Origin: Oscillospiraceae bacterium
Lineage (GTDB): Bacteria > Bacillota > Clostridia > Oscillospirales > Oscillospiraceae
Direction: 5' to 3'
Assembly (NCBI GenBank): GCA_902787755.1
Contig: CADAHL010000029.1
Span: 22,867 to 70,737 of the forward strand
DNA: 47,871 nucleotides
The notes beneath the pieces were generated by a model, which was given only the letters and a program-made list of their open reading frames with translations, was not told the DNA's origin and made no database searches. Below are positions 24,827-41,481 of the stretch, one piece after another. A program made the position numbers and the translations under genes. How positions within the stretch are numbered: position 1 is the stretch's first letter; each line of letters opens with the position of its first letter.

Positions 24827-24875
24827 ACGTCCCGGGAAAAGACGCAACTGTCATTTCCCGGGACGTGTTTTTATT
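24827..24875. terminator. Bidirectional terminator between mnmA and the LacI gene
   Basis: ACGTCCCGGGAAA (24827-24839) pairs with TTTCCCGGGACGT (24854-24866), followed rightward by GTTTTTATTTT. Leftward it begins next to the regulator's stop codon and ends in ATTTTTA. Confidence 0.85.
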
Positions 24876-25884
24876 TTGTGCTTTTGCCCCAGACCGGTGT
24901 GGTCTGTACGTAGGTCCAGCGGAAGGGCAGCTCCGGAGACCGGATCCGCTCTGCCAGCAGGGAGGCGGCCAAACGGCCGATCTCAGAGCTGGGGATCCGG
25001 GCTGTGGACAGGCTGGGTTCTACGACAGAGGCCTCCAGCGATCCGTCGAAGCCGGTGAGCATCACGTCGTCCGGAACGCTGAAGCCCAGCTGCTTGAGCG
25101 CGCTCATCAGATGAATAGCCAGGTAATCGTTGGCACAGGCGAAGCCGTCGGGGATCCCCGGCATGGCGGAAAGCCGCTCCAGCAGCCAGGCCGTATTCCC
25201 GTAGGACTCGCTGTCCTTCTCCAGAATGCACAGCCTCCGGTCGACCGTGAGTCCTGCATCGCCCAGGGCCGAGCAATAGCCGGCCCACCGTTCATAGAAG
25301 CTGTTGCAGTGGGCGATATCTCCCACAAAGCCGATGCGGCGCGCTCCGGCGTCGATCATGCGCCGAACAAGCTGTGTCTCGCTGGCGAAATTCTCCATGG
25401 TGATCAGATCGCAGCACAGCAGCGATCGACCCGCCCGGGCGAAACCGTCCACAAAGACGGTGGGCTTGCCGAGTCCGCAGACCATTTCCAGATAGGCCCG
25501 GTCGAACAGCTCGATGCACAGGATGCCGACGGTCTGCTTCAGGTCAAGATGAGAGGGGAGAAGCCCCGCGGCGATCTCTCCGTCCGATATCTCAAACATC
25601 CGGATATTGTAGCCGAAGCGGCAGATCTGATCGGTGAAGCTGGTGATAAAGAAAGCACCGAAGTTGTGGCTGAGCAGCTTGTGCCTTGTCAGCAGGGCGA
25701 TGCTCCCCCGGGGCGGCTCCGGACGGAGCGCCTGAGAATAGCCCAGCTCCCGGGCCTTGGAGAGCACCAGACTCCGGGTCGCCTCCGGCACCGAACCCCG
25801 GCCGTTGAAGATCTTGGAGACGGTGTTTCGGGACAGCCCGCAGGCGTCGGCGATATCCTGCATCGTTATTCGTTTCAGCGCCAT
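24871..25884 (-). CDS. LacI-family transcriptional regulator (copy 1)
   Basis: A 337-residue repressor. The helix-turn-helix ITMQDIADACGLSRNTVSKI is at about 6-25, followed by the periplasmic-binding-protein-like sugar-sensing core (60-337) with VFVDGF, GFVGDIAHCNSFYERW, CANDYLAIHLM and LTGFDGSLEASVVEPSLST. The hinge after LGY lacks the usual N-P-x-A-R-x-L pattern. The recognition helix SRNTVSK is identical to that of the second LacI protein at 33754. It is divergent from the nine-repeat lipoprotein gene and probably senses a fructose-containing sugar. The ATG at 25884 has only a weak ribosome site (AGGCAG). An inverted repeat TTTAC-N5-GTAAA (25952-25966), just upstream of its own promoter, may be its operator. 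Confidence 0.9.
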   Translation of the reverse strand: MALKRITMQDIADACGLSRNTVSKIFNGRGSVPEATRSLVLSKARELGYSQALRPEPPRGSIALLTRHKLLSHNFGAFFITSFTDQICRFGYNIRMFEISDGEIAAGLLPSHLDLKQTVGILCIELFDRAYLEMVCGLGKPTVFVDGFARAGRSLLCCDLITMENFASETQLVRRMIDAGARRIGFVGDIAHCNSFYERWAGYCSALGDAGLTVDRRLCILEKDSESYGNTAWLLERLSAMPGIPDGFACANDYLAIHLMSALKQLGFSVPDDVMLTGFDGSLEASVVEPSLSTARIPSSEIGRLAASLLAERIRSPELPFRWTYVQTTPVWGKSTK

Positions 25885-25920
25885 AAGAGATCAACTGCCT
25901 TTAATATATAGGTTAGCTTC

Positions 25921-25949
25921 ATCATAGCATAGCCGCGCACGGAATACAA
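25921..25949 (-). promoter_or_regulatory. Promoter of LacI copy 1
   Basis: Leftward TTGTAT (25949-25944), 17-bp spacer, TATGAT (25926-25921). The palindrome TTTAC-N5-GTAAA at 25952-25966 abuts the -35 box. Confidence 0.65.
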
Positions 25950-26036
25950 GCTTTACGAAATGTAAACTTGTTATCTCAGCTTCTATGAAAGATCGACAGA
26001 AAAAGGTGCTTTTGCCTGTGTAGAATCTCCAAAAAG

Positions 26037-26048
26037 GTGCAAATGCAC
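26037..26048. promoter_or_regulatory. Putative shared operator GTGCAAATGCAC (site A)
   Basis: GTGCA-AA-TGCAC, an inverted repeat with a 2-bp centre, lies 10 bp upstream of the -35 box of the lipoprotein promoter. An AAAAAGGTGC direct repeat occurs at 26000-26009 and 26031-26040, 31 bp apart (about three helical turns). The identical 12-mer lies in the ABC-operon leader at 35035-35046. Confidence 0.6.
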
Positions 26049-26058
26049 AATAAATAGA

Positions 26059-26087
26059 TTGACTATATGTAAAATATGCACTATCAT
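26059..26087 (+). promoter_or_regulatory. Promoter of the lipoprotein-GH32 operon
   Basis: TTGACT (26059-26064), 17-bp spacer, TATCAT (26082-26087). The leader to the start codon is about 100 nt. Confidence 0.7.
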
Positions 26088-26190
26088 GAAAGTGACATAT
26101 TGGGCTGTTATGCAAAGTCCGTATGTACGAAATCGGGATGGCCGGCGCGGGAGACTGCGTATCGGCAGGAACGACAAGGAGGACACAGCT

Positions 26191-29100
26191 ATGAGATCGG
26201 TTAAGCTTAGGCTTCTGGCCCTGGTGCTGGCAGCGCTGCTTCTGGCCGGCTGCGGTCAGAGCGGCCCCAGCGTCCAAAGCGATGCGGCGACGCCGGAGCG
26301 CACGGCGCAGAGCACGGGAGGGGGACTCTTCTCTTTCCTGAACTTGGGAGCCAGACATGAGAAGAGCGAAGCGACCATCGTGAAGAACACGGGCTTCCAG
26401 ATCAAGTTTGAGGGCGACAAGGTCGCGGGTACCGGCGAGGATGCCGACGGCGTGTATCGGGTCACCGCCACCAAGACCGACGGTGAGGCCTGGCATGTGA
26501 AGCTGGAGTGCAACTACCCCACCGTCCCCGGACGGGAGTACCATGTGACCTATCGTTTTCACTCCAATGTGGCCGGCTCCGTCAAGTTCGGCGACAACCA
26601 GGAGTTCAAGATCAAGGCCGGTGACAACACCGTGACCGGCAAGCTGGTGGCTACCGGCGATCCCAGCTATTTGGATCTTCAACTGGGCATGCTCTCTCCC
26701 TTTACCATGGAGTTCCAGGAGATCGAGGTAGAGGAATACGTCGACAATCTCAGCTATGAGAACGCGCTGCCCAAGCCCCTGGACTTTGAGGACAACAACG
26801 TGCTCTCCGAGCGCCATGATGATGGATATTCCCCGGATTTCAAGCGCACTCATGACCAGGTCACCATCAATTATTACAGCACCGCCTGGGAGAACGATAT
26901 CTGGAAGGCAAGACTGTACATTTTTACCGGAATGGTTCCCCAGGAAGGCAACCGTTATCGTATCCGGGCGGACGTGCAGTGCGAGAAGGATCTGGACTTT
27001 GAGGTGCTGTTCAACCGCGGCGAGCAGGAGAAGGGCTACGGCGCGCTGTATGCCCAGCACGTGGATGCCGGTCAGGTCAAGACCATCGAACAGATCCTGA
27101 ATATCCCGTCCTCCAACTATAAGGGAGACGAGATCGTGCTGCAGTTCTCTCTGGGCAAGGCCCCGGAGGGGACCGACATCACCGTGAGCAAGGTCTGCGT
27201 GGAAAAGATCGTGGACGACTACACCAACGTGCTTCCCAAGGATTATGCCCTGGATAAGCAGGTGCTCACCGGCAAGACGCTGCACGACACTGTGCCGGTG
27301 GCCTATACCGACATTCCGCTGAAGGGCTTCAGCTACAGCGGCACCGACACCGTGTTCTCCCAGAATGACGACGGCTACGAGGTGAGCCTGTCGGAGAGCA
27401 AGGACAGTGCCACGCTGAAGATCACCAAGGCCCCCGAGAATGCGGAGGACCGGGGCGTGTGGAAGGCCAAGCTCTTTGCCGCCACCGGCGTGACCCCGGA
27501 GGCCGGCACCACTTATAAAGTGAAGTTCGACCTGAAGTCCGAGAAGGATCAGGCGGAATATGAGGTCTGCTTTGACGGCAGCTCCGAGAACGCTTACGGC
27601 GCGCCGCTTTACGGCCGCAGCCTGACCGCCGGCGGCACCGACCATGTGGAATTCAGCTTCACCCCCGCCGAATCCAAGGGAGAACTGAAGCTGCGCCTGC
27701 AGATGGGCAAGACCGATACCGCCCAGGGCAACACGGTCACCATCAGCAACCTGAGCGTGGAGTCGATGAAGGTGGAGACCACGGAAGTGGCCAGCGTCTC
27801 CTACCAGACCGGCAGGAACGTGAGAGAAGAGCACGGCGACGGTATCGAACAGACGGTTTCCGCCTCCGGCAATTCCGCTTCCCTGAACGTGACCCAGGCC
27901 CGCTCCGGCGGCGGACTGTGGAGCTCCCGCCTGTTCGTGAACACGGGCGTTACGCCCGAGGCCGGTCAGCGCTACCGGGTGACGGCGGACATGTCCACCA
28001 ATCAGGCCTTTGACGGCGCGGAGATCGTCTGCGACAACGGCAGCGCCGAGGCCGGTTACGGCAAGCAGCCCGGACTGAGCCTCAGCGGCTCCGGCACCTA
28101 TACCGCCGACTTCATCGCTCCCGACTCCGGCTGCGGCGAGCTGGTGCTGCGCTTCCAGCTGGGCAACAGCCCGGCGGGCAATACCGTCACCGTCAGCAAT
28201 ATCCGGGTGCAGAAGATCACCACCGAGACTACCAACGTGGATCTGGGCGGCTTTGCCTATCCTGTGACCACCGAGCCTCAGACCACCACCGTTCCTGCCG
28301 GTTGGGCCGCCCAGAGCGTGAGCCTGTCGGCCACTTCTGTGGCCTACGACGGCTTTGAACAGAACGCCTACATTGACGGCGGCGAGGCGGTCCTGGATAT
28401 CACCAAGGGCCGGGAGGGCGGCGGCATCTGGAGCTCCCGTCTGAATGTGGGCACCGGCGTGGTGCTGGAGCCGGGTCAGAAGTACGCGGTCAGCGCCGTG
28501 CTTCATTCCAAAGCCGCCATCGGTGAGTTCCAGTGCCTGTACTCCAACGGCGTGGAGGAGAATGACGATTATAACCTCGGCGGCAAGGGCTACCAGGACG
28601 GCAGCTACGGTCTGAGTGTTGGCGCCGGCGAGAGCACCACCGTCTATCAGGAGTTTGTGGCCCCCGAGCGGAGCCAGTACAATCCTCTGGTGCTTCGCTT
28701 CCAGCTGGGCGACAGCCCCGCCCCCAACACCGTCACGGTCAGCAACGTGGTTGTGTCCAAGTGGGTGGAGGAGCATGAGGAGACCACCGGCGGCAGCACC
28801 CAGAACAATTCCTTCTTCATGGACCTGCGCGGCGGCGCCCAGGCTGAGATCACCGGCAACGGCGGCAGCGCCTCCGCCCGGATCATTACCCCCGGCGACG
28901 ATTGGCAGGTGAAGCTCTATGCCGACACCGGCGTGACCCTGCAGAGCGGCAAGAGCTATGAGATCAGCTTCAGCGTGAACGCCCCCGCGGCCTGCAGCGC
29001 CGTCTTCAAGCGGGATGGCGGCGAGGAGACCGATTTCGGCTCCGAGAGCATTGCCGCCGGCAGCCAGACCATCACCCACTATGTCACGCCCGAGACCGCC

Positions 29101-30585
29101 GGCAAGCTGCAGATCATCCTGAAGATCGGCAACCTGCCCGCCGGCAGCACCGTTACCATCAGCGGTATCGCGATCAAGGAGACCAGCGAGACTCTGGACA
29201 CCAACCTGATGACCGATTCTCTGTCCGCCTGGGCGCCCGTGAATTTCTGGGCCCATGAGGATTACAGCGCCAGCATCTCCAACGACGGCTCCTCGGCTAC
29301 CCTGAACATCAATTCCGCCGCCAACCAGGAGGTCTGGAAGGTCAAGCTCTTTGTGGAGACCGGCGCCAGCCTCCAGGCCGGAAAGAACTACCGCATCAGC
29401 GCCGACGTGCAGTCCAGTGCCGACACCGGCTATGAGATCTGCTACAACAACGGCGAGGTGGAGAAGGGCGTAGGCGCCCAATACGGCCTGAACGCCAACA
29501 GCACCAAGCAGACCGTGATCTACGAGGTGACGCCCGAGAGCGCGGCCAACCTGATCCTGCAGTTTTCTCTGGGCAACGCCCCGGCCCCCTGCGCCTTTAC
29601 CGTGAGCAATGTGAAGGTGGAAGAGGTCACCGAGACCAGTTCCTCCAACGTGCTGCCCAGCTTCAGCTATGACAGCGTTGGCAGCATCGACAACAACGCC
29701 GATCCCGGCTACATCTGCTCCATGGAAAAGAGCGCCAGCTCCGTCAACTTCCATATCCAGCAGGCTCCCGCCGAGGGACGCAACCCCTGGAACGTGAAGC
29801 TGAACCTGCACACCGGCTTCACCCCCGAGGCCGGCAAGGGCTACCAGATCAGCTTTGATATCGACTCCAAGAAGAGCCAGGATCTGGTGGAGTTCTTCTA
29901 CGACGGCAGCTCCGAGCATGCCTACGGCGCTCTGTACGAGCAGAGCCTTCCCGCGGGCAAGAAGACCGTCTCCTACACCATCATGCCCGGCGGCAGCAAC
30001 GGCGAGCTTACGGTTCAGATCCGTCTCGGCAAGACGGACAGCGCCAGCGGCAACGACTACACCATCAGCAACGTGAAGCTCCAGGAGGTCACCTTCACCA
30101 CCCGGTCCACCCCGGAGAAGAAGGACGCGGCCGAGCTCTACGTCCACGAGACCTACAAGGCCACCCTGGAGAAGACGGAGAAGACCGCCACCGTCAAGGT
30201 GACCAAGGTTCCCGAAAAGGATCAGGAGCCCTGGAAGATCAAGCTCTTCATCGATACCGGCGTGACGCTGAAGGCCGACCAGAAGTACCGCATCAGCTTT
30301 GAGGCTGTGGCGGGCGAGGGGATGGAGATCCCCTTCGAGGTCTGCTACAACAAGGACGGCGAGGAGAAGGCTCTGGGCGCCAAATACGGCTTGACCGCCA
30401 CTCAGGAGGCCCAGGTGGTGGAATACATCGTCTTCGCTCCGGCGGACGCTCACCTGGTGATCCAGTGCTCCCTGGGCAACGCCAAGGCCGACACCGCCTT
30501 TACCATCAGCAACGTGAAGGTAGAGAAGGCCGGCAAGACCGAGCTCGTCTCCGATACCATCTACGTGTTCAAGGAAGTATCCTGA
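26191..30585 (+). CDS. Giant lipoprotein with about nine tandem CBM-like repeats
   Basis: A 1464-residue surface lipoprotein: signal MRSVKLRLLALVLAALLLAG with lipobox LAGC (C21), then a Ser/Thr/Gly linker. The rest is about nine repeats of 125-185 residues (starting near 61, 185, 346, 533, 686, 869, 1006, 1154 and 1308). Each has a core of W-x-x-K-L-x-x-x-T-G-V-T, then a G-K-x-Y-x-I-S-F-D strand and an E-V-C-Y-N-N-G/G-Y-G-A block. Each ends with L-x-L-Q-F-S-L-G-N-A-P-A and T-V-T-I-S-N-V-K-V-E. This jelly-roll pattern is that of CBM4/CBM9-type carbohydrate-binding modules. No catalytic domain is seen. With a GH32 lipoprotein 30 bp downstream, I infer a fructan-capturing scaffold. ATG 26191 has AAGGAGG. 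The sugar bound is not proven. Confidence 0.85.
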   Translation: MRSVKLRLLALVLAALLLAGCGQSGPSVQSDAATPERTAQSTGGGLFSFLNLGARHEKSEATIVKNTGFQIKFEGDKVAGTGEDADGVYRVTATKTDGEAWHVKLECNYPTVPGREYHVTYRFHSNVAGSVKFGDNQEFKIKAGDNTVTGKLVATGDPSYLDLQLGMLSPFTMEFQEIEVEEYVDNLSYENALPKPLDFEDNNVLSERHDDGYSPDFKRTHDQVTINYYSTAWENDIWKARLYIFTGMVPQEGNRYRIRADVQCEKDLDFEVLFNRGEQEKGYGALYAQHVDAGQVKTIEQILNIPSSNYKGDEIVLQFSLGKAPEGTDITVSKVCVEKIVDDYTNVLPKDYALDKQVLTGKTLHDTVPVAYTDIPLKGFSYSGTDTVFSQNDDGYEVSLSESKDSATLKITKAPENAEDRGVWKAKLFAATGVTPEAGTTYKVKFDLKSEKDQAEYEVCFDGSSENAYGAPLYGRSLTAGGTDHVEFSFTPAESKGELKLRLQMGKTDTAQGNTVTISNLSVESMKVETTEVASVSYQTGRNVREEHGDGIEQTVSASGNSASLNVTQARSGGGLWSSRLFVNTGVTPEAGQRYRVTADMSTNQAFDGAEIVCDNGSAEAGYGKQPGLSLSGSGTYTADFIAPDSGCGELVLRFQLGNSPAGNTVTVSNIRVQKITTETTNVDLGGFAYPVTTEPQTTTVPAGWAAQSVSLSATSVAYDGFEQNAYIDGGEAVLDITKGREGGGIWSSRLNVGTGVVLEPGQKYAVSAVLHSKAAIGEFQCLYSNGVEENDDYNLGGKGYQDGSYGLSVGAGESTTVYQEFVAPERSQYNPLVLRFQLGDSPAPNTVTVSNVVVSKWVEEHEETTGGSTQNNSFFMDLRGGAQAEITGNGGSASARIITPGDDWQVKLYADTGVTLQSGKSYEISFSVNAPAACSAVFKRDGGEETDFGSESIAAGSQTITHYVTPETAGKLQIILKIGNLPAGSTVTISGIAIKETSETLDTNLMTDSLSAWAPVNFWAHEDYSASISNDGSSATLNINSAANQEVWKVKLFVETGASLQAGKNYRISADVQSSADTGYEICYNNGEVEKGVGAQYGLNANSTKQTVIYEVTPESAANLILQFSLGNAPAPCAFTVSNVKVEEVTETSSSNVLPSFSYDSVGSIDNNADPGYICSMEKSASSVNFHIQQAPAEGRNPWNVKLNLHTGFTPEAGKGYQISFDIDSKKSQDLVEFFYDGSSEHAYGALYEQSLPAGKKTVSYTIMPGGSNGELTVQIRLGKTDSASGNDYTISNVKLQEVTFTTRSTPEKKDAAELYVHETYKATLEKTEKTATVKVTKVPEKDQEPWKIKLFIDTGVTLKADQKYRISFEAVAGEGMEIPFEVCYNKDGEEKALGAKYGLTATQEAQVVEYIVFAPADAHLVIQCSLGNAKADTAFTISNVKVEKAGKTELVSDTIYVFKEVS

Positions 30586-30615
30586 AATCCGATTGATTGA
30601 AAGGTGAGTGGACGA

Positions 30616-32196
30616 ATGAAACTGAGAAAACTGCTGATCCCTCTGCTTCTGGTTCTGGCCATGCTGCTGGCTGCCTGCGGCGGCGCTCCGGCCCAGGAGA
30701 ACAACGTGGCCGATTCCCAGGAATACCAGGACAATCTGTCCGAGAGCATCCCCGATGAACCCTACGAGGCGGTGGACTACACCCTGTATCCCGTCCCCGA
30801 GGGCGGTTACGTGGGCGACACGATGCCCTTCGTCACCGAGGATGGCACCCTGGAGCTGTACTACCTGTACGACACGGACCACAACGGCCAGGGCTATCAC
30901 CCCATCTACAAGTACTCCACCAAGGACCTCTGCGGCTATGAGGATCACGGCCTGGAGCTGAATTATGGCCAGATGTCCGAGCCCGACCCCGCCCTGGGCA
31001 CCGGCTCCGTCATGCAGGACGCCGACGGGGTGTACCACCTGTTCTACACCGGCCATAACGACACCGGCAACGGCGGTCTGGGCAAGGAATGCGTCATGGT
31101 GGCCACCAGCACCGACCGGGAGAACTGGGAAAAGAACCCCGAACCCCTGTTCTTCCCGCCGGAGAACTACTCCCACGACGATTTCCGGGATCCCGAGGTC
31201 TTCTGGGTGGAAGACGATCAGTGCTACTGGCTGCTGATCGCCGGCCGTGACAACGAGCTGGGCGGCGTGGTGGCCAAGTACACCTCCACCGACCTGGAAA
31301 ACTGGGAATTCCAGGGACACATCTACGCCCCCAACGCCCAGTTCATGCTGGAGTGCCCGGACCTGTTCGAGATCAACGGCACCTGGTATCTGACCTACAG
31401 CTGGGACTGCGTGACCTACTACGCCATCGGCGAATCCATGAACGGCCCCTTCACCGCCCCTGAGGACAACATCCTGGACGGCCAGGGCACCACTCCGGGC
31501 AACAGCTTCATCTTCTACGCTGCCAAGACTGCTCGGATCGGCGATGACGTCTACCTCTGCGGCTGGCTGGGCCGGGCGGGCCTGAGCGGCGACTCCGGCA
31601 TCTATCAGTGGGCCGGCAATCTGCTGAACCATCAGCTGGTGCAGCATGAGGACAAGACTCTGGGCCTGAAGGCTCCCGATACCTTCGAGAACTATTTTAC
31701 CCAGGACAAGAACTTCCAGGCCGTGGCCGTGGAGGGCGAGGCGGACATCAGCGGCAACAATATCGCGCTGAAGGCCGAGGCTGACAGCTACGCCCTGGCG
31801 GACATGGGCACCCGGGCTCCCACCATGACGCTGGAGTGCGACGTGACCATGGACCCCAACAGCCGCGTGGGCTTCGCCTTCGGCGGCAGCGAGAAGGATC
31901 CCATCTACACCGCGCTGTGCCTGGACGGCCCCCGGAACGTGATCCGGTATGAGGGCTATGAGATCAGCGAGATGGAGCAGTACGACCCTGCCGCCTTTAC
32001 CCGCTTCGACTTCTCCGCCAACACGACCCATCATGTAAAACTGGTCTGCGAGAACGAGATCGTGGTCCTCTACATCGACAATGTGAAGGCCCTGTCCTCC
32101 CGCATTTTCCATTCCACGGAAGGCGCCCACATCGGCGTGTTTGCCGACGGCTGCGAGGCCTCCTTCGACAACATCAGCATGAAGATCCCCGGCTGA
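30616..32196 (+). CDS. Extracellular GH32-like lipoprotein (fructan hydrolase candidate)
   Basis: A 526-residue lipoprotein with signal and lipobox LAAC (C21). The five-bladed propeller of clan GH-J is recognisable. D68 in VGDTMPF takes the place of the nucleophile in the usual WMNDPNG. DFRDP carries the transition-state Asp (D192). LECPDLF carries the acid/base Glu (E246). A C-terminal beta-sandwich of about 180 residues follows. The VGDTMPF variant belongs to a divergent GH32 branch, so activity on fructan, inulin or levan is likely but the linkage is unknown. The ATG at 30616 has AAGGTGAG. It is transcribed with the nine-repeat lipoprotein and closed by a strong terminator. Confidence 0.82.
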   Translation: MKLRKLLIPLLLVLAMLLAACGGAPAQENNVADSQEYQDNLSESIPDEPYEAVDYTLYPVPEGGYVGDTMPFVTEDGTLELYYLYDTDHNGQGYHPIYKYSTKDLCGYEDHGLELNYGQMSEPDPALGTGSVMQDADGVYHLFYTGHNDTGNGGLGKECVMVATSTDRENWEKNPEPLFFPPENYSHDDFRDPEVFWVEDDQCYWLLIAGRDNELGGVVAKYTSTDLENWEFQGHIYAPNAQFMLECPDLFEINGTWYLTYSWDCVTYYAIGESMNGPFTAPEDNILDGQGTTPGNSFIFYAAKTARIGDDVYLCGWLGRAGLSGDSGIYQWAGNLLNHQLVQHEDKTLGLKAPDTFENYFTQDKNFQAVAVEGEADISGNNIALKAEADSYALADMGTRAPTMTLECDVTMDPNSRVGFAFGGSEKDPIYTALCLDGPRNVIRYEGYEISEMEQYDPAAFTRFDFSANTTHHVKLVCENEIVVLYIDNVKALSSRIFHSTEGAHIGVFADGCEASFDNISMKIPG

Positions 32197-32210
32197 TCGC
32201 CGGACAACAG

Positions 32211-32255
32211 AAAAGCGGATACCCGAGCTCTCAAGGGAGCGGGTATCCGCTTTTT
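32211..32255 (+). terminator. Terminator of the lipoprotein-GH32 operon
   Basis: AAAAGCGGATACCCG and CGGGTATCCGCTTTTT form a long stem with T5. Confidence 0.9.
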
Positions 32256-32265
32256 AATATACAGA

Positions 32266-32356
32266 TAAAAGTGAAAACGGAAGAGATGCAGTATCCCGCA
32301 AAGCGGGACGGATTCGTATCCGTCGGCTCCGTCCACACCATAATGTTTCACTTTTC
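32266..32356. repeat. Palindromic small element with internal hairpins
   Basis: AAAGTGAAAAC near 32268 is mirrored by GTTTCACTTT near 32345. Between the arms are perfect mini-hairpins TCCCGC-AAA-GCGGGA (about 32294-32308) and ACGGAT-TCGT-ATCCGT (about 32309-32324). The linker and hairpin style matches the array at 11998-12103. Its right end runs into the stop codon of the leftward gene. Confidence 0.55.
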
Positions 32357-33077
32357 ACTCTTCACTGATCAGGTAGCTCAGATAATCCAGACAGGCTGCC
32401 GTCCGGGGACTGTTGGCGACGAGGCCCAAATACACCGGCTCCGGGAATCCGGCGGAGGCAAAGACCGGGAAGGCCGCGACCTCCAGCGCGTTGGCTGCGG
32501 TCCGGATCTCAACGATCTGCTCGCTGGCTTCCCCCAGCTGATACTCGATGCTGTTGTCGGACAGGATCACCTCGTTTTCCCGCAGGAAGGGGAGAAGCGC
32601 TTCGGAGAGACCGGCGCTGTCCAGCTCCAGCAGGTAGCCGCCCCGGGACAGCAGATCCCAGGCCTCCCGGTTCATCAGTACCAGATCCAGCTTCTGGGCG
32701 CTGACGGCTCCCATCAGCTTCATTTTAGAGGCGTAGGCATACTCGTGGTTCAGGGTATCCGCGTTGTCCGACAGGTACAGATCCAGGTACAGATAGACCT
32801 CCTGCCGCTTTTCGTCCAGGCCGGCCTCAAGCAGATAGCCCTCGGTCAGATCCCGCTGCAGATCCTCGCCCAGCGCCACGTTGGCCATGGCCAGGTACAG
32901 CACCGGCTCCTTCTTCGTCAGATTCCGATGCAGCGCCGAGCCGAGCACCAGCAGCGCGACCAGCCCCAGCAGAATGGGCCACTTGTAATATTCCCAGACG
33001 TAGCCCAGCTTCTCGCCGGGCCCCATAGCGCGAAAAGCCGCCTTTCGGGCGGCTTTTTCCTTTTCCGAGAGCTTCAC
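32355..33077 (-). CDS. Unknown membrane-anchored protein next to the YesL homologue
   Basis: A 240-residue protein with a basic cytoplasmic start (VKLSEKEKAARKAAFRAMGP), one membrane helix at about 33-50 and an extracytoplasmic domain. That domain contains DLVLMNREAWDLLSRGGYLLELD, which recalls the lobe of a periplasmic binding protein, but I cannot assign a family. The start is GTG 33077, whose GTGA overlaps the stop of the YesL-like gene; GGAGGAAC lies just before. It is thus the last gene of a LacI - YesL-like - this gene transcript. A role in sugar uptake or sensing is inferred from context only. Its stop codon lies in the arm of a palindromic element. Confidence 0.7.
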   Translation of the reverse strand: MKLSEKEKAARKAAFRAMGPGEKLGYVWEYYKWPILLGLVALLVLGSALHRNLTKKEPVLYLAMANVALGEDLQRDLTEGYLLEAGLDEKRQEVYLYLDLYLSDNADTLNHEYAYASKMKLMGAVSAQKLDLVLMNREAWDLLSRGGYLLELDSAGLSEALLPFLRENEVILSDNSIEYQLGEASEQIVEIRTAANALEVAAFPVFASAGFPEPVYLGLVANSPRTAACLDYLSYLISEE

Positions 33078-33739
33078 GGCTGTTCCTCCTCTCCGGCGGC
33101 GGCCTCCCGGTCCTCCGGAGTACCGGAGCTGGCGATCAGGATGCTGTTGAGGAGCCAGGCGCTGATCATGGCGCACAGGCCCTCGCCGAAGATGATCAGA
33201 GGGGTGAACCAGGCCACCACCACGAAGAACATGGCAAAGTGGACCGCGAAGACCAGAATGGTGGCGAAGAGGTAGTGGGTGCCGATGAGGAAGGCGTTTT
33301 TCAGCATGGCGGTGTTGGTGTTCTCCACGCTGGCCACCAGGGGAAACACGTAGGTCAGCACGATCACATAGATGACCGAAACGGCGATGACGACGGCCAG
33401 GATCAGGGTCCACAGCACTGCCGCGGGGCCCTGGGAGCTAAGACGCAGGTGGTAGAGGATGTACCCGTCTCCGGCCAGGAACAGGCCCGCCGCCAGCAGG
33501 ATCAGCCACAGCACGGTGGCCTGCTTGAAGTTCTGCCGGAAGGCCCGGAAGAAGGTGGCGGCCACATGGCTCTCCTCATCCCGAACGACCTTCAGGCAGC
33601 TGTAATACAGCGCCGTGGTGGAGGCCCCGATGGTGAAGATCGGGATGGAGCAGAGGAACCACAGCAGGTTCAGGTAACAGGCGTAGCACAGCTTGAGCAG
33701 CAGCTGGCTGAACTTGCTCTCATAGGAGAAAAACTTCAT
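33074..33739 (-). CDS. YesL/DUF624-family membrane protein
   Basis: A 221-residue integral membrane protein with about six helices. The N-terminal pattern F-x-Y-E-S-K-F-S-Q-L-L-x-K-L and LNLLWFLCSIPIFTIGASTTALYY is diagnostic of the DUF624/YesL family. Such proteins almost always accompany LplB/LplC-type sugar ABC transporters and LacI or AraC regulators; their function is not established. The ATG at 33739 is preceded by AGAAGGGAT, 14 bp after the LacI stop. The C-terminal tail is acidic (GTPEDREAAAGEEEQP) and its stop overlaps the next gene's start. Confidence 0.88.
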   Translation of the reverse strand: MKFFSYESKFSQLLLKLCYACYLNLLWFLCSIPIFTIGASTTALYYSCLKVVRDEESHVAATFFRAFRQNFKQATVLWLILLAAGLFLAGDGYILYHLRLSSQGPAAVLWTLILAVVIAVSVIYVIVLTYVFPLVASVENTNTAMLKNAFLIGTHYLFATILVFAVHFAMFFVVVAWFTPLIIFGEGLCAMISAWLLNSILIASSGTPEDREAAAGEEEQP

Positions 33740-33753
33740 GGAGATCCCTTCTT

Positions 33754-34800
33754 TTATTTCCGGGCGGTGGTTTCCCGTTCGATCAGATCGGTTTGAGTGT
33801 GGACGATGCGGAAGTCCAGGGAGGGCTCACGGATGCGGCTCATGAGCAGATGCACCGCTTCATAAGCCATGATCTGCGTGTGGATGTGGATGGTGCTCAG
33901 GGCGGGGCGGCTGCGCCGGGACTCCGCCGAGTCGTCAAAGCCCAGGATGCGCACGTCCTCCGGGACGGTCTTGCCGATGGAGAAAAGCAAGCACATCGCG
34001 TCGCCCGCCACGAAGTCGTTGGCACAGATGAAGATGTCCGGCAGCTCTTCCAGCGAATACAGCTTCTCAGCGATCTCGTCCGGGTGGTTGTATCGGATGC
34101 AGTATTTCTCCTCCAGCGGCAGGCCTGCCATGTGCAGCGCAAGGGAGAAGGCCATATACCGCTCGTAGAAGGACTGGCAGTGCTCCGGGTTCCCGATGAA
34201 GCCGAAGCGCCGATCGCCTGCGCGCAGGGCGTCGCCCATAAAGCGCGAGATTTCCGTCTTGTTGTCCATATAGAGCTGATCGGCGGGGAGACTGTACAAG
34301 TCGCATCCTGCCGGCCCGTCCACGAACAGGATCGGGATCCCCAGCTCGCAGAGCATATTGTCGTAGGCCAGGTCAAACATCTCAATGCAGACGATGGCCT
34401 TGACCTGATCCTGGCGGAAAGTGAAGGGCAGCGTTTTCTCCCGCAGATTCTGTTCGGTCACACGGTGCGTGTTCATGGTGTAGCCCAGCTGGGTAATCTC
34501 CCGCTGGAATTTGTCCAGCATCAGCGAGGCAAAGTGCGACTGGTCGAGGAAGACTGTGGTGAAAAGCGCGATCCCGCCCTGAAAGCTCGGGGACTCCGGC
34601 GCGTCGTTCTCGACGGGGGAGAGAGAGGCGGCGGCCATCACATAGGAAAACTGCTTGTAGCCCATCTCCACGGCTTTCTGCAGGATCCTCTCCCGGGTGG
34701 CCTCCGCCAGACCGTCGGAGTTGTTGATCGCCTTGGAAACGGTATTGCGGGAGATCCCCAGGGCATCTGCAATGTCCTGAATGGTGACCTTCTTTTTCAT
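33754..34800 (-). CDS. LacI-family transcriptional regulator (copy 2)
   Basis: A 348-residue regulator. The helix-turn-helix VTIQDIADALGISRNTVSKA is at about 5-24, followed by a sugar-binding core with FVDGPAGCDLY, GFIGNPEHCQSFYERY, CANDFVAGDAMCLL and LGFDDSAESRRSRPALSTI. It is clearly related to copy 1 over its whole length and shares the recognition helix SRNTVSK. It also lacks the canonical hinge motif and has a longer linker (about 55-75). The ATG at 34800 (GGAAGTG upstream) is chosen over the in-frame TTG one codon earlier. It is divergent from the ABC operon and probably represses it through the GTGCA-type palindromes in the shared intergenic region. Confidence 0.92.
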   Translation of the reverse strand: MKKKVTIQDIADALGISRNTVSKAINNSDGLAEATRERILQKAVEMGYKQFSYVMAAASLSPVENDAPESPSFQGGIALFTTVFLDQSHFASLMLDKFQREITQLGYTMNTHRVTEQNLREKTLPFTFRQDQVKAIVCIEMFDLAYDNMLCELGIPILFVDGPAGCDLYSLPADQLYMDNKTEISRFMGDALRAGDRRFGFIGNPEHCQSFYERYMAFSLALHMAGLPLEEKYCIRYNHPDEIAEKLYSLEELPDIFICANDFVAGDAMCLLFSIGKTVPEDVRILGFDDSAESRRSRPALSTIHIHTQIMAYEAVHLLMSRIREPSLDFRIVHTQTDLIERETTARK

Positions 34801-34831
34801 CAAAACACTTCCATTTCATACGATATTTATA

Positions 34832-35008: not shown

Positions 35009-35034
35009 ACTATCGCAAAAATCTGTCCGGAAGT

Positions 35035-35046
35035 GTGCAAATGCAC
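35035..35046. promoter_or_regulatory. Putative shared operator GTGCAAATGCAC (site B)
   Basis: Identical to site A at 26037-26048. It lies about 20 bp beyond the expected transcription start, where a bound LacI-type repressor would act as a road-block. Confidence 0.6.
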
Positions 35047-35098
35047 GATATACCAGAGAAAGTATTTGCGTGCTGAAAGAGAGAAAAGGAGGAATTCT

Positions 35099-36040
35099 AT
35101 GAGAAAGGCCATGGCAAATGCTCCTGCCGAAAAGGGCGGAAGCAAAATGCACAACTTACTGGTCTATCTCCGTCAGCACTGGCAGCTGTATGTGCTGTTC
35201 ATGCTGCCCGCCTTTGCGCTGACGGTGATTTTCCGGTACATCCCCATGGGCGGCATCATGATCGCCTTTACGGAGTACAACCCGATCCGCGGCATTCTCG
35301 GCAGCGAATGGGTGGGCTTCGCGCATTTCAAGCGCTTCCTGTCATCCCCGGACTTCATGCGTTACCTGATGAACACCCTGAAGCTGAGTGTCTACGGACT
35401 GCTCTGGGGCTTCCCGGCTCCCATCCTGCTGGCCTTCCTGCTTAACCGGATCCTCAGCTCCAAGACCAAGCAGAAGATCCAGCTGGTGCTGTACATGCCC
35501 AACTTCATCTCTGTCATCGTGCTCTGCGGTATCGTGCGTATCCTGCTGGCCCCCACCGGCATGATCAACATGCTCCTGGGCACCAGCACCAACTTCATGA
35601 CGATGCCCTCCGCATTCCGCACCATCTACATCGCCTCCGGCATCTGGCAGGGCGCAGGCTGGGCCTCCATCATCTACACGGCGGCTCTGTCCAACGCCAG
35701 CAAGGAGCTGAAGGAAGCTGCCGTCATTGACGGCGCCAACATCATCCAGCAGATCAAGGCCGTGGAATGGCCCGCCATCAAGGACACCGTTCTGATCCAG
35801 TTCATCATGTCCGTGGGCAACATCATGTCCGTCGGCTTTGAGAAGGCCTACGCTCTGCAGACCGACCTGAACCTGAACGCGTCGGAGATCATCTCCACCT
35901 ACGTGTACAAGAAGGGTCTTCTGGACGGCGACTACGGCTTCTCCACCGCCGTCGGCCTGTTCAACACGGTCATTAATGTCATTCTGCTGATCTCCATGAA
36001 CGCCCTCGTCAAGAAGATGAACGACGGCAAGGGAATTTAA
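35099..36040 (+). CDS. Sugar ABC transporter permease, LplB-type
   Basis: A 313-residue inner-membrane subunit of a CUT1-type sugar importer. It has about six helices. FRYIPMGGIMIAFTEYNPIR and VGFAHFKRFLSSPDF are typical of the LplB (COG4209) branch. The cytoplasmic EAA loop, KELKEAAVIDGANIIQQIKAVEWPAI, contacts the ATPase. The ATG at 35099 has a perfect AGGAGG six bases away; the open frame to 35033 lies in the leader. It is the first gene of a six-gene operon (two permeases, binding protein, GH32, fructokinase, ATPase). Relatives handle complex oligosaccharides. Confidence 0.93.
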   Translation: MRKAMANAPAEKGGSKMHNLLVYLRQHWQLYVLFMLPAFALTVIFRYIPMGGIMIAFTEYNPIRGILGSEWVGFAHFKRFLSSPDFMRYLMNTLKLSVYGLLWGFPAPILLAFLLNRILSSKTKQKIQLVLYMPNFISVIVLCGIVRILLAPTGMINMLLGTSTNFMTMPSAFRTIYIASGIWQGAGWASIIYTAALSNASKELKEAAVIDGANIIQQIKAVEWPAIKDTVLIQFIMSVGNIMSVGFEKAYALQTDLNLNASEIISTYVYKKGLLDGDYGFSTAVGLFNTVINVILLISMNALVKKMNDGKGI

Positions 36041-36057
36041 GGAAGGGGGAACTGACT

Positions 36058-36966
36058 ATGAAACCGAAAAAGAAAAAGAGTGAGTTCGCCAAACAGCCCC
36101 TGGAGGATAAGATTCTTCTGATCATCGGATATACCATCCTGGGCCTGTTCCTGGTTGCCATCATCCTGCCCGTCATCTACATCATCCTGGCTTCCTTTGT
36201 CGATCCGGTCACGCTGCAGAACAGCGGCCTTTCCTTCGACTTCAGCAAGTGGACGCTCACCGCGTATGAGCGCGTGCTGTCTAACTCCCAGATCTGGGTC
36301 GGCTTCAAAAACGCCCTGCTCTACTCTGTCCTCTTCACCGTCATCTCCGTTGTGGTGACCCTGCTGGCCGCCTACCCCATGTCCCGCGCGGACTTCAAGG
36401 GCAAGGGCTTCTTCAACACCATCTTCGTCATCACCATGTTCTTCGGCGGCGGCCTGATCCCCACCTACCTGCTGATCGCAAACCTGGGCATGCTGGATAC
36501 CATCTGGGCCATCCTGATCCCCGGCGCCTTCAGTGTGTGGAACATGATCATCGCCCGCACCTACTACATGGGCATCCCCAGAGATCTGCAGGAGGCCGCC
36601 GAGATCGACGGCGCTACTGAGATGATCTATTTCTTCCGGATCCTGCTGCCCGTCTGCACTCCCATCATCGCTACCATTTCCATGTGGCAGTTCGTGGGTA
36701 TGTGGAACAGCTACTTCGACGCGATGATCTACCTGAACAGCGCCTCCAAGCAGCCCCTGCAGCTGGTCCTGCGCGCCATCCTGATTCAGAGCCAGCCCCA
36801 GCCCGGTATGGTGTCCGATATGCAGTCCACCGCGGCCCGTGCTCAGCTGGCTGAGCTTCTGAAGTACGCTACGATCATCATCTCCTCTCTGCCGCTGATG
36901 ATCATGTACCCCTTCTTCCAGAAGTACTTTGACAACGGCATCATGGCCGGCGCTGTCAAGGGCTAA
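36058..36966 (+). CDS. Sugar ABC transporter permease, LplC/YtcP-type
   Basis: A 302-residue partner permease with about six helices after a very basic start (MKPKKKKSEF). It carries VTLLAAYPMSRADFKGKGFF and the EAA loop DLQEAAEIDGATEMIYFFRILLP. MYPFFQKYFDNGIMAGAVKG is the typical C-terminus of the LplC/YtcP branch of MalG-like permeases. It starts 17 bp after the first permease with GGAAGGGGG upstream. It should dimerise with the LplB-type protein to form the import channel. Confidence 0.93.
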   Translation: MKPKKKKSEFAKQPLEDKILLIIGYTILGLFLVAIILPVIYIILASFVDPVTLQNSGLSFDFSKWTLTAYERVLSNSQIWVGFKNALLYSVLFTVISVVVTLLAAYPMSRADFKGKGFFNTIFVITMFFGGGLIPTYLLIANLGMLDTIWAILIPGAFSVWNMIIARTYYMGIPRDLQEAAEIDGATEMIYFFRILLPVCTPIIATISMWQFVGMWNSYFDAMIYLNSASKQPLQLVLRAILIQSQPQPGMVSDMQSTAARAQLAELLKYATIIISSLPLMIMYPFFQKYFDNGIMAGAVKG

Positions 36967-37023
36967 GAAGAGCTTCCGCAGGCACAAGCCTGTTTAAGCA
37001 ACAAAATGAAAAGGAGAAACGAA

Positions 37024-38742
37024 ATGAGCAAAATGAGCAAAACCCTGGCCCTGGTCATGGCTCTGGTCATGATCATGGCTCTGCTGGCCGGCTGCGGCGG
37101 CTCCGGCAACGCGGGCGGCGGCGCTGCTTCCGCTCCTGTCGAGGTTCCCGAGGGCGGCTACACCTTCCCCCTGGCTGAGAAGGCTGAGATCTCCGGCCTG
37201 ACCAGATTCCCTGCCAATACCGAATCTGATCCCAACAACCGCACCATCTACAAGCGTCTTGAGGAACAGACCAATGTTCACGTCAACTGGAAGGCCATTC
37301 AGGGCGACCAGTGGGGCGACAAGATCGCGCTGGAGATGGCCAACATCAAGACCCTGCCCGAGTTCATTAACCCGGCCGGTCTGGGTGACGCCGATATCCT
37401 GAAGTATGCCAAGCAGGGCGTCATCATCCCCCTGGAGGATTACATCGTTCCCGAAATCATGCCGAACCTCTGCAAGGTCTTTGAGCAGGCTCCCGAATAC
37501 AAGGACATGTGCACCGACGAGAACGGCCACATCTGGACCCTGCCCTGGATCGAGCAGCTGGGCGTTGGCAAGACTGCTATCCAGACCATCGGCAATATGC
37601 CCTTCATCAACACCGCGTGGCTTGACTTCCTGGGACTTGAGATGCCCACCACCGTCGATGAGTTCGAGGCTGTCCTGATCGCTTTCCGCGACAATGCCGA
37701 CGCTCTGAAGAAGGAATTCAACATTGACGGCGACATCATCCCCCTGGCCTGCATCGTGAACGGCGGCAATGAGGACTGCCGTGTTCTCTGCAACGGCTTC
37801 GGCGAGGGCTACGGCGATCCTGACGACTGGCGCCACATCGTCATCACCGATGACAAGCAGGTCATCTGCGCTGCCACCACTCAGGGCTGGCGCGACGGCG
37901 TGGAATGGCTCCACAAGCTCTACACCGAGAACCTGTTCGACCCCGACGCCTTCACCCAGGAGTGGTCCACCTACGTGGCCAAGGGCAAGTCCGGCCGCTA
38001 CGGCGTCTGCTTCTCTTGGGACGTGGCCAACATTGTTGGTCTGACCATGGCTGACATCCAGAACGGCACCGCAGGCTGGGCTCCGCTGCCCATGCTGAAG
38101 GCTGACACCGTGAACCTCACCCCCAACACCGGCTCCCTCACCTCCGGCTTTGACCGCGGCCGCGGCGCTGTTCTGACCGCCAACGCCAAGAACCCCGCCC
38201 TGATTTGCGCCTGGCTCGACCAGATGTACGCTCCTCTGCAGTCTCCTCAGAACAACTGGGGCACCTACGGCGAAGATGACGGCTTCGATATCTTCGTGAT
38301 GGGCACCAACGCCGAGGGCGAGCCCATGCTCCAGCATGCCGACCTGGGCGACCACTCTCCCGTTGAGGTCCGTGAGGCCGAGATGGTCGACGGCTGCCTG
38401 GCCGTGCTCGACAGCTACTACGGCAAGTATGTCACCTGCCCGGACGACGCTCTGTATCGTCTGAACTGGATCAAGGACATCTACACCCCCGACATGCACA
38501 CCAAGTATGTCTTCCCCAACGTGCTGCTGTCCGCTGAAGACACCAAGGAGATCTCCAACCTGCTTGCCGATATCGACAAGTGCATCGAGACTGCCCGCGC
38601 CAACGCGATCATGAACGGCTTCTCCGATGCTGACTGGAATCAGCTCCAGAACGATCTGCAGGCTTACAAGCTGGATCAGCTCCTGGCGATCTTCCAGAAG
38701 TACGTGGACGCCTCCTCTGAGGCTGCCCTGCTCGCCAAGTAA
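37024..38742 (+). CDS. Extracellular sugar-binding lipoprotein of the ABC transporter
   Basis: A 572-residue lipoprotein: signal with lipobox LAGC (C24), a Gly/Ser linker, then a large two-lobe binding protein of the LplA/family-1 type. Features include PNNRTIYKRLEEQTNVHVNW, then DKIALEMANIKTLPEFI, and the hinge-crossing blocks YGVCFSWDVANIVG and NTGSLTSGFDRGRGAVLTAN. It should deliver fructo-oligosaccharides to the permeases. The ATG at 37024 (AAGGAG seven bases upstream) is preferred over 37006, which lies within the ribosome site region. A pair of strong hairpins follows its stop codon and may raise its mRNA level above that of the downstream genes. Confidence 0.92.
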   Translation: MSKMSKTLALVMALVMIMALLAGCGGSGNAGGGAASAPVEVPEGGYTFPLAEKAEISGLTRFPANTESDPNNRTIYKRLEEQTNVHVNWKAIQGDQWGDKIALEMANIKTLPEFINPAGLGDADILKYAKQGVIIPLEDYIVPEIMPNLCKVFEQAPEYKDMCTDENGHIWTLPWIEQLGVGKTAIQTIGNMPFINTAWLDFLGLEMPTTVDEFEAVLIAFRDNADALKKEFNIDGDIIPLACIVNGGNEDCRVLCNGFGEGYGDPDDWRHIVITDDKQVICAATTQGWRDGVEWLHKLYTENLFDPDAFTQEWSTYVAKGKSGRYGVCFSWDVANIVGLTMADIQNGTAGWAPLPMLKADTVNLTPNTGSLTSGFDRGRGAVLTANAKNPALICAWLDQMYAPLQSPQNNWGTYGEDDGFDIFVMGTNAEGEPMLQHADLGDHSPVEVREAEMVDGCLAVLDSYYGKYVTCPDDALYRLNWIKDIYTPDMHTKYVFPNVLLSAEDTKEISNLLADIDKCIETARANAIMNGFSDADWNQLQNDLQAYKLDQLLAIFQKYVDASSEAALLAK

Positions 38743-38849: not shown

Positions 38850-40334
38850 ATGACCAGCAAAATGCTGCAGAAGGCCAGAGACTTCGAAAAGAAGTATCTC
38901 CCTTATACCATATCCGAATTACCCAAATTCCACGTGACCGGCGGGATCGGCTGGATCAACGACCCCAACGGCTTTGCTCCCTACAAGGGCGAGTATCATC
39001 TGTTTTTCCAGTATTACCCCTACGATACCAAATGGGGTCCCATGCACTGGGGTCACGTCAAGACCAAGGACTTTATCCGCTGGGAGAGACTTCCCGCGGC
39101 TCTTGCTCCTGACTCCGATTATGACCGGGACGGCTGCTTCTCCGGCGGCGCGGTTGAGATGCCCGACGGACGGCATCTGCTGATGTACACCGGCGTGCGG
39201 AACATACGCCGCCGCAACGGCAGTATCGTGGCTTTTCAGACCCAGTGCATCGCTATCGGCGACGGGTTGGATTATGAGAAGCTGGAGGGCAATCCCGTCA
39301 TTACGGCAAAGCTTCTGCCCGAGGGCGGCAGCAGTGAGGACTTCCGGGATCCGAAGATCTGGAGGGAAGGGAACACCTATTACGCTGCCATCGGCAATCG
39401 CTGCGCCGACGGAAGCGGCACGATCCTCCTGTATCAGAGCAAGGACGCCAGAAATTGGGAGTATGTGAGCGTCCTGTCCGCCTGCCACAATCAGTACGGG
39501 CGGATGTGGGAATGCCCGGACTTCTTCCAGCTGGACGGAGAACATGTGCTGCTGGTCTCGCCTCAGGAGATGGCGGCCATTGGTCTGGAGTTTCATCCCG
39601 GCAATGCCAATGTATGCCTGATCGGCAGCTACGATAAAAAAGCCCATCATCTGAACCGGAAGAATGTCCATGCCATCGATTACGGTCTGGATTTCTATGC
39701 GCCTCAAACCTTGTTGACAGAAGATGGACGGCGGGTTATGATAGGATGGATGCAGAACTGGGAGACCTCCTCCTGCAAGCCCTCCGAGCTGCGCTTTATG
39801 GGTCAGATGACGCTGCCCAGAGAGCTGGCGATCCGCAACGGCCGCCTGTACCAGAACCCGGTGCGCGAGCTGGAGGCCTATCGGGGCGTGATGATCGACT
39901 ACCATAACGTGCTCATCAACGGCGAGACCAGCCTGCGGGGGATCAACGGACGGTACATCGACATGACCGTGATCGTACGCCCCGGCAACGAGAACAGCAT
40001 GTATAAGTGGTTCCGCCTGTATGTGGCCAGAGACGGCGAGCATTTCACCTTTATCCGTTTCCGGCCAGAGACCGGCACCATCAAGGTGGACCGGACCCAC
40101 AGCGGCTTCCCCCACGATATCGTGAATGTCCGCGAGTTTCCGGTGAGCCTGAAGGACGGCGTGCTGAAAATGCGGGTCGTCATGGACCGCTACAGTCTGG
40201 AGCTGTTCGTCAACGACGGCGAGCAGGCCGCATCCTTCGTGCTTTATACTCCGCTGGAGGCCAGCGCGGTCAGCTTCTCTTCTGACGGCAGCGTACTGGT
40301 GGACGTGGAGAAATATGAATTGCTGATGGAGTGA
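38850..40334 (+). CDS. Cytoplasmic GH32 beta-fructosidase (sucrose-6-P hydrolase-like)
   Basis: A 494-residue glycoside hydrolase family 32 enzyme without signal peptide. All three catalytic motifs are complete: WINDPNG (nucleophile D38), FRDPK (D167) and WECPDFF (acid/base E221). HYGHW-like PMHWGH and FSGGAV are also present, and a C-terminal beta-sandwich follows (about 330-494). It should hydrolyse imported fructo-oligosaccharides or sucrose to fructose and glucose; there is no PTS in the operon, so the substrate is probably not phosphorylated. An AGGAGG site is present. It overlaps the fructokinase ribosome-site region, and the genes are tightly coupled. Confidence 0.93.
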   Translation: MTSKMLQKARDFEKKYLPYTISELPKFHVTGGIGWINDPNGFAPYKGEYHLFFQYYPYDTKWGPMHWGHVKTKDFIRWERLPAALAPDSDYDRDGCFSGGAVEMPDGRHLLMYTGVRNIRRRNGSIVAFQTQCIAIGDGLDYEKLEGNPVITAKLLPEGGSSEDFRDPKIWREGNTYYAAIGNRCADGSGTILLYQSKDARNWEYVSVLSACHNQYGRMWECPDFFQLDGEHVLLVSPQEMAAIGLEFHPGNANVCLIGSYDKKAHHLNRKNVHAIDYGLDFYAPQTLLTEDGRRVMIGWMQNWETSSCKPSELRFMGQMTLPRELAIRNGRLYQNPVRELEAYRGVMIDYHNVLINGETSLRGINGRYIDMTVIVRPGNENSMYKWFRLYVARDGEHFTFIRFRPETGTIKVDRTHSGFPHDIVNVREFPVSLKDGVLKMRVVMDRYSLELFVNDGEQAASFVLYTPLEASAVSFSSDGSVLVDVEKYELLME

Positions 40335-40339
40335 TAGCG

Positions 40340-41308: not shown

Positions 41309-41481
41309 GTAATTTCCACGGCCCCGGCCACTCCACACCAATGGTCGGCAAGCTGTGAAAAAAAGGAGGAAAAAACGCCCCGGCTCGGGCTGCGGCAGTG
41401 TGGAGACCTGTCGTAACGCCGGATGCGCAAGCACCGGCGAGGGCACATCAGGCGGAGGCCGTGTGTCCGGAGTCGAAAACT

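Follow-up and report, generated by a model that had tools for sequence, protein, structure and literature searches.

What does a lipoprotein built of nine jelly-roll repeats do beside a lipid-anchored enzyme of glycoside hydrolase family 32 (GH32), and which polymer do the two handle? The question is raised by a 47,871-nt stretch of DNA (the window) from an Oscillospiraceae bacterium (assembly GCA_902787755.1, 2.54 Mb in 86 contigs; contig CADAHL010000029.1, positions 22,867-70,737, forward strand). Results of our analysis lead us to read the pair as the surface component of a Gram-positive locus for fructan utilisation, most likely one for levan-type (beta-2,6) grass fructan, and we assign to this reading as a whole a probability of about 0.65. 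That the locus serves fructan is very probable; that the array of repeats itself binds fructan is likely with less assurance, and the preference for levan over inulin is held with similar reserve. The anatomy of the pair, the fold of its repeats, which is that of carbohydrate-binding modules (CBMs) of family 4, a rare palindrome shared with a neighbouring operon, the recurrent linkage and fusion of array and GH32, and the kinship of locus proteins to FusA and BT1760 are shown by computation. The likely task of the pair is to catch fructan of grass at the surface of the cell. Coordinates without prefix are window positions, while L-numbers denote related loci and G-numbers other genomes.

26191-30585, plus strand: CBM-array lipoprotein, 1464 aa, nine CBM4-type repeats; intact open reading frame (ORF), with related arrays upstream of the same GH32 type elsewhere
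30604-32196, plus strand: GH32 lipoprotein, BT1760-like (PF00251, E=2.1e-32; likelier start ATG 30616)
32210-32255, plus strand: intrinsic terminator closing the two-gene unit (minimum free energy -32 kcal/mol for a 75-nt stretch, z -7.0)

The ATG of the array gene is preceded by the ribosome-binding site AAGGAGG (26176-26182), and its product starts with a lipobox recognised by eye (LLLAGC, Cys21). Nine W.[AVSI][KR]L anchors are present at residues 101, 238, 424, 577, 747, 905, 1049, 1200, and 1348, and a hidden Markov model (HMM) also gives nine repeat domains of about 140 aa each:

26362-26748, plus strand: repeat 1, at best 22% identical to others within the array and 68-73% between species (the most conserved)
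26788-27219, plus strand: repeat 2, from HMM
27337-27777, plus strand: repeat 3, from HMM
27805-28227, plus strand: repeat 4, from HMM
28309-28773, plus strand: repeat 5, from HMM
28798-29193, plus strand: repeat 6, from HMM
29224-29637, plus strand: repeat 7, predicted CBM4-type jelly roll (AlphaFold2 model of 29212-29643)
29671-30099, plus strand: repeat 8, from HMM
30115-30540, plus strand: repeat 9, from HMM, followed by a C-terminal tail

The best within-array identity of the repeats is 22-44%, and the diverged copies are detectable at the DNA level too, where Tandem Repeats Finder (TRF) reports no tandem array that passes. Chance low-complexity repeats were ruled out by the lack of a TRF array, by the specific fold and profile, and by the repeat order kept in 13 other arrays. 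A long antisense ORF (25891-32130) that sits opposite both genes was rejected as the real gene; no relatives of it were sought. The GH32 gene follows the array gene on the same strand after a gap of 18 nt (GTG start 30604) or, more likely, 30 nt (ATG 30616), and its product carries the lipobox LLAAC.

The Pfam family CBM_4_9 (PF02018) matches the array protein in four stretches (E=1.3e-17, 64.9 bits with a cut-off of 25.9), and this protein is the sole PF02018 place listed genome-wide at E<=0.001. The AlphaFold2 model of repeat 7, built from 145 repeats of the window and related loci, is almost all beta (mean pLDDT 94.3, pTM 0.88). Compared with the PDB by Foldseek, it is closest to the CBM4 structure 1gui (E=1.3e-8), followed by SGBP-B of B. 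thetaiotaomicron and the CBM4 of CelK (query TM 0.73), the leading CBM4 entries of the list having query TM values of 0.60-0.73. A sequence-profile search retrieves the same proteins as Foldseek, and one repeat matches the family profile, which includes the window repeats, with E=5.1e-54. The repeat is thus predicted with high confidence to be a CBM4-type jelly roll, an assignment based on Pfam CBM_4_9 and the fold, not on CAZy family boundaries. CBM66 was rejected as the module type, as the array has no CBM66-type Pfam match up to E=1 (the Pfam model being the one that we take to represent CBM66) and the nearest fold is CBM4; CBM66 is named in none of the 50 best Foldseek rows (132 rows at E<=0.001).

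Residues kept among the 145 repeats (repeat 7 numbering) are K45 (81%), F/Y47 (about 80%), E75 (74%), E84 (89%), and Q117 (62%); all sit on strands and may form a binding groove. Repeat 1 is without the E75 and E84 positions that most other repeats keep. A model of three repeats, calculated from 17 sequences only, consists of well-formed domains with weak linkers (pTM 0.42), and this lack of a fixed arrangement is in keeping with a flexible chain. The tail after the last repeat (30540-30585), of low pLDDT in the three-repeat model, reads SDTIYVF in the window and SDT[IV]YTF in relatives, and is a possible docking motif.

A preliminary description of this DNA had proposed a nine-repeat lipoprotein of 1464 residues, paired with a GH32 lipoprotein and acting as a flexible arm of divergent, anciently expanded CBM-like modules. 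The intact frame, Cys21, the nine anchors, and the nine HMM domains bear out the first part, and the common strand, the short gap, the shared terminator, and fusions in two relatives confirm the pairing. The predicted structure of a single repeat agrees with CBM-like jelly rolls, of CBM4 and not CBM66 kind, so that a non-CBM fold, which would have spoken against the proposal, is not what was found. The flexible arm accords with the three-repeat model, and the array is best read as a multivalent arm next to the hydrolase.

The fructan context of the pair, which the preliminary description had also proposed, is strengthened by the shared palindrome, the BT1760 kinship, the array-GH32 fusions, and the recurrent array-GH32 linkage. 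The regulatory and uptake genes concerned are the following:

24871-25884, minus strand: LacI-type regulator 1 (LacI1), divergent from the pair; a homologue stands beside 13 of 25 array loci
26037-26048, no strand: GTGCAAATGCAC palindrome, exact copy, putative LacI operator upstream of the pair
33754-34803, minus strand: LacI-type regulator 2 (LacI2), divergent from the ABC operon; recurrent neighbour
35035-35046, no strand: second exact copy of GTGCAAATGCAC, upstream of the ABC operon; kept at LacI2-permease divergons of relatives
35033-36966, plus strand: two ABC permeases, the first probably from ATG 35099
37006-38742, plus strand: solute-binding lipoprotein, FusA-like (E=6.2e-105 to 5g5y, residues 72-569)
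38850-40334, plus strand: cytoplasmic GH32 (PF00251, 7.5e-94; scrB family above cut-off)
40331-41308, plus strand: PfkB-family kinase (fructokinase is the best NCBIfam match, under the cut-off)
41398-42663, plus strand: MalK/UgpC-type ABC ATPase (profile match)

The palindrome GTGCAAATGCAC has two exact copies in the 2.54-Mb genome, one before the array-GH32 pair and one before the ABC operon; the looser pattern GTGCANNTGCAC occurs at three genome places, of which just these two are exact. At 20 LacI2-permease divergons of the relatives and the window (18 plus two in the other orientation), the palindrome is exact in 11 and has at most one mismatch in 19, as compared to 47 of 4615 background tiles of 330 nt, which include the sites themselves (the array starts used were approximate). 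The two LacI proteins presumably bind it. FusA is a fructo-oligosaccharide protein of S. pneumoniae, whose identity and complex with nystose are given in passages of PMC5287374, and the FusA-like protein of the window is predicted to bind a similar ligand.

The GH32 lipoprotein has the catalytic residues D72, D196, and E250 (numbering from GTG 30604); its GH32 signature comprises the nucleophile D72, RDP at 195-197, and E250-C251, and the match to the GH32 C-terminal family is weak and below cut-off. Its closest solved relatives are the chains of BT1760, an endo-levanase on the surface of Bacteroides thetaiotaomicron (E=3e-51 to 1e-49), the next other GH32 structure following at 1e-15. Identity to BT1760 is 32% (140 of 437 aligned residues). 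Besides the nucleophile, stabiliser, and acid/base, the T, RD, and EC residues and the active-site aromatics Y70 and W318 are kept (residue roles in BT1760 according to passages of PMC6560043 and PMC7618045). In 81 GH32 lipoproteins the motifs VGDxMP, YHP, and FRDP are invariant, EC[PS]D is found in 80, and GTGS in 70.

The same gene pair, a search for which had been suggested, recurs in other genomes. Species genomes were scanned with the window GH32, and the loci counted here are the best 80 of 360 relatives; most are metagenome bins, so that single rows could be misbinned. The array stands directly upstream of the GH32 lipoprotein gene in 24 of these 80 loci, and in a 25th across the LacI1 gene. 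Arrays split over frames (L031, L103, and L105) or of two repeats only (L049) were scored as present, unmended; contigs stop inside or before the array in L044, L051, L057, L094, and L100. Six of 200 family genomes, own included, match the array protein, and in each of the five others a GH32 of the same type adjoins the array, is fused to it, or lies on the far side of the LacI gene. Among 394 genomes of the order, eight match the repeat profile; four of them (own included) have at least six repeats, each with this GH32 type beside or fused to the array, and the other four have one or two weak matches each. These weak matches fall in two GH16-CBM4 enzymes, a protein whose Ig-like domain recalls a 628-aa lipoprotein of G080, and what by eye is a solute-binding-like stretch joined to such modules. 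In a sample of the phylum, the array profile is matched at E<=1e-12 by one of 398 genomes, our own. Strong repeats are confined to the array locus in 14 array genomes, except for three contig-edge matches in G567, which appear to be the absent beginning of that array gene; this fragment aside, no strong array apart from such a GH32 was found in the genomes searched.

In G077 and G152 array and enzyme are naturally fused into single polypeptides, 2887 and 2729 aa long, which contain 14 and 13 repeats, respectively, and have the GH32 at the C-terminus. The giant secreted fusions at L026 6128-14791 and L028 6157-14346 have 14 and 13 repeats, a middle stretch, and then the BT1760-like GH32; by eye, the middle stretch is similar to the paired N-terminal repeats of copper amine oxidase, for which the related L027 protein gives only a weak Pfam match (E=0.08). 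CBM-like lipoproteins with an Ig-like domain are encoded at L027 4941-6827 (628 aa; beside the array in G080) and L113 568-2409 (in a genome without a strong array match). A single ORF at L116 1000-3411 (minus strand) joins, by eye, a solute-binding-like stretch to CBM-like modules and has no Pfam match at E<=0.001.

In the mechanism that we propose, the array lipoprotein would hold the polymer at the cell surface through many contact points, and the BT1760-like lipoprotein would cut it into oligosaccharides. These would be imported by the FusA-like binding protein and the ABC transporter, breakdown would be completed inside the cell by the second, cytoplasmic GH32 together with the PfkB-type (fructo)kinase, and the LacI regulators would switch both operons at one shared operator. 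A more far-reaching version, which we hold tentatively and at somewhat under even odds, makes the array a Gram-positive surface glycan-binding protein (SGBP) for levan, whose tandem CBM4-type modules form a fructan-binding branch of their fold; paired with its BT1760-like enzyme, it would have been passed among gut, largely ruminant, Oscillospiraceae, Erysipelotrichaceae, and Coriobacteriales, and would re-create the Bacteroides levan utilisome without an outer membrane.

Several observations weigh against this fructan-capture reading. The known CBM4 modules among the structural matches bind beta-glucans or xylan, not fructans. The array is lacking in 55 of the 80 loci (some contigs being cut), which marks it as an accessory. 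In the enzyme, BT1760 residues Q239, R244, W217, F243, and Y437 are either substituted or opposite gaps, so that linkage specificity and endo action are putative, and around W318 only 55 of 81 rows spell WAGN exactly. At the LacI1 divergons the palindrome is exact in the window only (1 of 15) and has at most two mismatches in 8 of 15 (background, 150 of 4615 tiles; L039 among the 15 has no array and L033 has another gene in between), and this half of the regulon is therefore less well conserved. Seven arrays (L033, L034, L043, L047, L053, L055, and L075) are without a lipobox.

It is with these points in mind that other explanations have to be weighed. The array could bind another grass polymer, mixed-linkage beta-glucan or xylan, and serve as an adhesin on plant fragments that leak vacuolar fructan, on which the GH32 acts nearby; the glucan- and xylan-related CBM4s as nearest structures and the weak, distant profile matches in two GH16 enzymes would suit this. 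However, no strong array was found with another enzyme, all four array genomes of the 394 in the order have this GH32 type beside or fused to the array, and the phylum sample gives no match at E<=1e-12 in its 397 other genomes, which makes the explanation unlikely. We find it still harder to credit that the array binds hardly any glycan or none and serves chiefly as a spacer or as a docking scaffold, be it for the GH32 or for other proteins of the surface. In favour of this, repeat 1 (at 68-73% between species, and devoid of the E75/E84 positions) and, by eye, the C-terminal tail are better conserved than the middle, but a spacer need not keep the polar and aromatic set that is kept in most of the 145 repeats. 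Somewhat less improbable than either, though still the minor option, is a system for inulin or mixed fructans with an exo-acting GH32 lipoprotein, whose BT1760 likeness would reflect subfamily ancestry only. In its favour, BT1760 has several residues in the pocket and at secondary sites that are not kept, and inulin gpPULs with GH32 and an ABC transporter are described in passages of PMC5320581; against this, no other solved relative is nearly as close as BT1760 and the Y70 and W318 equivalents are retained.

The preliminary description knew of no named system with this layout, which does not hold, as a name exists for loci of its kind, Gram-positive polysaccharide utilisation locus (gpPUL), defined in passages of PMC10318527: two LacI and two GH32 genes, ABC permeases, a solute-binding protein, and an ATPase are present. 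Its parallel with Sus-type capture, on the other hand, is closer than supposed, the enzyme being related to BT1760 of the levan utilisome of B. thetaiotaomicron, where a surface GH32 lipoprotein likewise stands with a separate surface levan-binding protein and an oligosaccharide transporter (passages of PMC7618045). That system has SusCD, while the window locus has an ABC transporter and a Gram-positive host; SusC/SusD homologues were absent among the scanned neighbourhood proteins, the remainder of the genome not being searched for them. The utilisome SGBP, BT1761, is made up of a pair of Ig-like domains and a single globular domain that binds levan, in contrast to the CBM4-type chain of our putative binder. 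Fructan gpPULs of Roseburia and Eubacterium rectale (Eub-3 and Eub-4) likewise combine LacI, ABC transporter, and GH32 in one locus; unlike the window locus, they have no separate CBM array described in the passages of PMC5320581, according to which the Eub-4 GH32 of two strains bears CBM66. The mixed-linkage glucan gpPUL of Blautia producta also has a multi-CBM4 surface protein and an ABC transporter, but the four CBM4 of BpGH16-MLG are on the enzyme itself and the substrate is beta-glucan (passages of PMC10318527). CBM66 (SacC), CBM38, and DUF4960 are levan- or inulin-binding modules reported in passages of PMC10076258, whereas the window array has its nearest fold in CBM4.

The study from which the gpPUL definition is taken found its own locus to be without an SGBP, enzyme-borne CBMs often filling the role (passages of PMC10318527). 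The kind of locus is therefore known; what is unusual is a separate glycan-binding array in a role usually given to such enzyme-borne modules. The literature searched (titles, abstract openings, and passages) contained neither a recognisable array-GH32 pair nor a report of a fructan-binding CBM4-type module, which the array would be if it binds fructan. The locus thus supplies a candidate separate glycan-binding protein of a gpPUL, with an evident partner enzyme and one ligand to test, of which natural variants are many (8-20 repeats, lipobox present or absent, fused forms), and could yield a new class of fructan-binding module for levan labelling or capture. Grass fructans are a feed sugar of ruminants; a ruminant is named in the titles of 18 of the best 80 loci and 40 bear the label RUG, which we take to mean rumen genomes. 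Timothy-grass levan is a substrate of BT1760 (title of PMC5245892), and a rumen study (passages of PMC13431278) reports that transcripts of GH32 genes active on fructan, for the most part from metagenome-assembled genomes of Atopobiaceae and Ruminococcus, tend to be higher in cows of low methane intensity.

The 14 full arrays (the window and 13 others) have 8-20 repeats. Window repeats 1, 2, and 3 find their best match at the same position from the start in all 13 others, repeat 8 at the last-but-one position in 13 of 13, and repeat 9 at the last in 10 of 13, while the middle repeats match loosely. Judged from these sequences, the ends of the array are fixed and the middle expands and contracts, which supports the old, maintained expansion suggested for the divergent repeats. 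In L024/L103 and L025/L049 the array gene is frame-broken or down to two repeats and the adjacent GH32 is open, indicating either array loss in progress or assembly errors. In the tree of the 81 GH32 lipoproteins, arrays are clustered: the midpoint split, itself weakly supported, has them in 22 of 33 rows to one side and in 4 of 48 to the other, but their distribution requires about 10 changes (at least 5). Array-bearing Erysipelotrichaceae and Actinomycetota rows lie within a well-supported set of 29 rows, mostly Oscillospiraceae and other Clostridia, and this placement points to transfer of the pair between lineages. The Actinomycetota loci carrying the pair are L094 and L105, placed at that level.

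By a simple rule, 71 of 84 GH32 ORFs have a lipobox, or 68 of 81 after removal of three duplicates. The array has one in the window and ten relatives (L030, L036, L046, L054, L061, L080, L089, L096, L103, and L105), N-termini missed by the rule, such as that of L054, being judged by eye. With the seven exceptions named above, the lipid anchor of the design first described is not a general feature of such arrays; Tyr replaces the expected Cys in L034 (LLLSGYG), L055 (LLSSYG), and L075 (LLLSGYT), and these arrays may be released or anchored otherwise. A plasmid origin found no support, the pair having no megablast match in 72,556 plasmid records, a search that detects near matches only.

As to neighbouring genes, array and GH32 lipoprotein genes sit behind LacI2, permeases, the solute-binding protein, and the cytoplasmic GH32 in L034 and L075. 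A DUF624/MusI-type membrane protein (33074-33739, minus strand) and an unassigned protein (32355-33413, minus strand) adjoin LacI2, and their homologues recur there in many loci. An mnmA-like gene is the direct neighbour of LacI1 in the window and lies within about 1.3 kb of it in L043 and L047, and the chromosomal position may thus be partly conserved. The intergenic region 42940-43000 contains two CTTCCCCTC(A/G)AGGGGAAG-like palindromes and may be a repeat element of the dispersed type.

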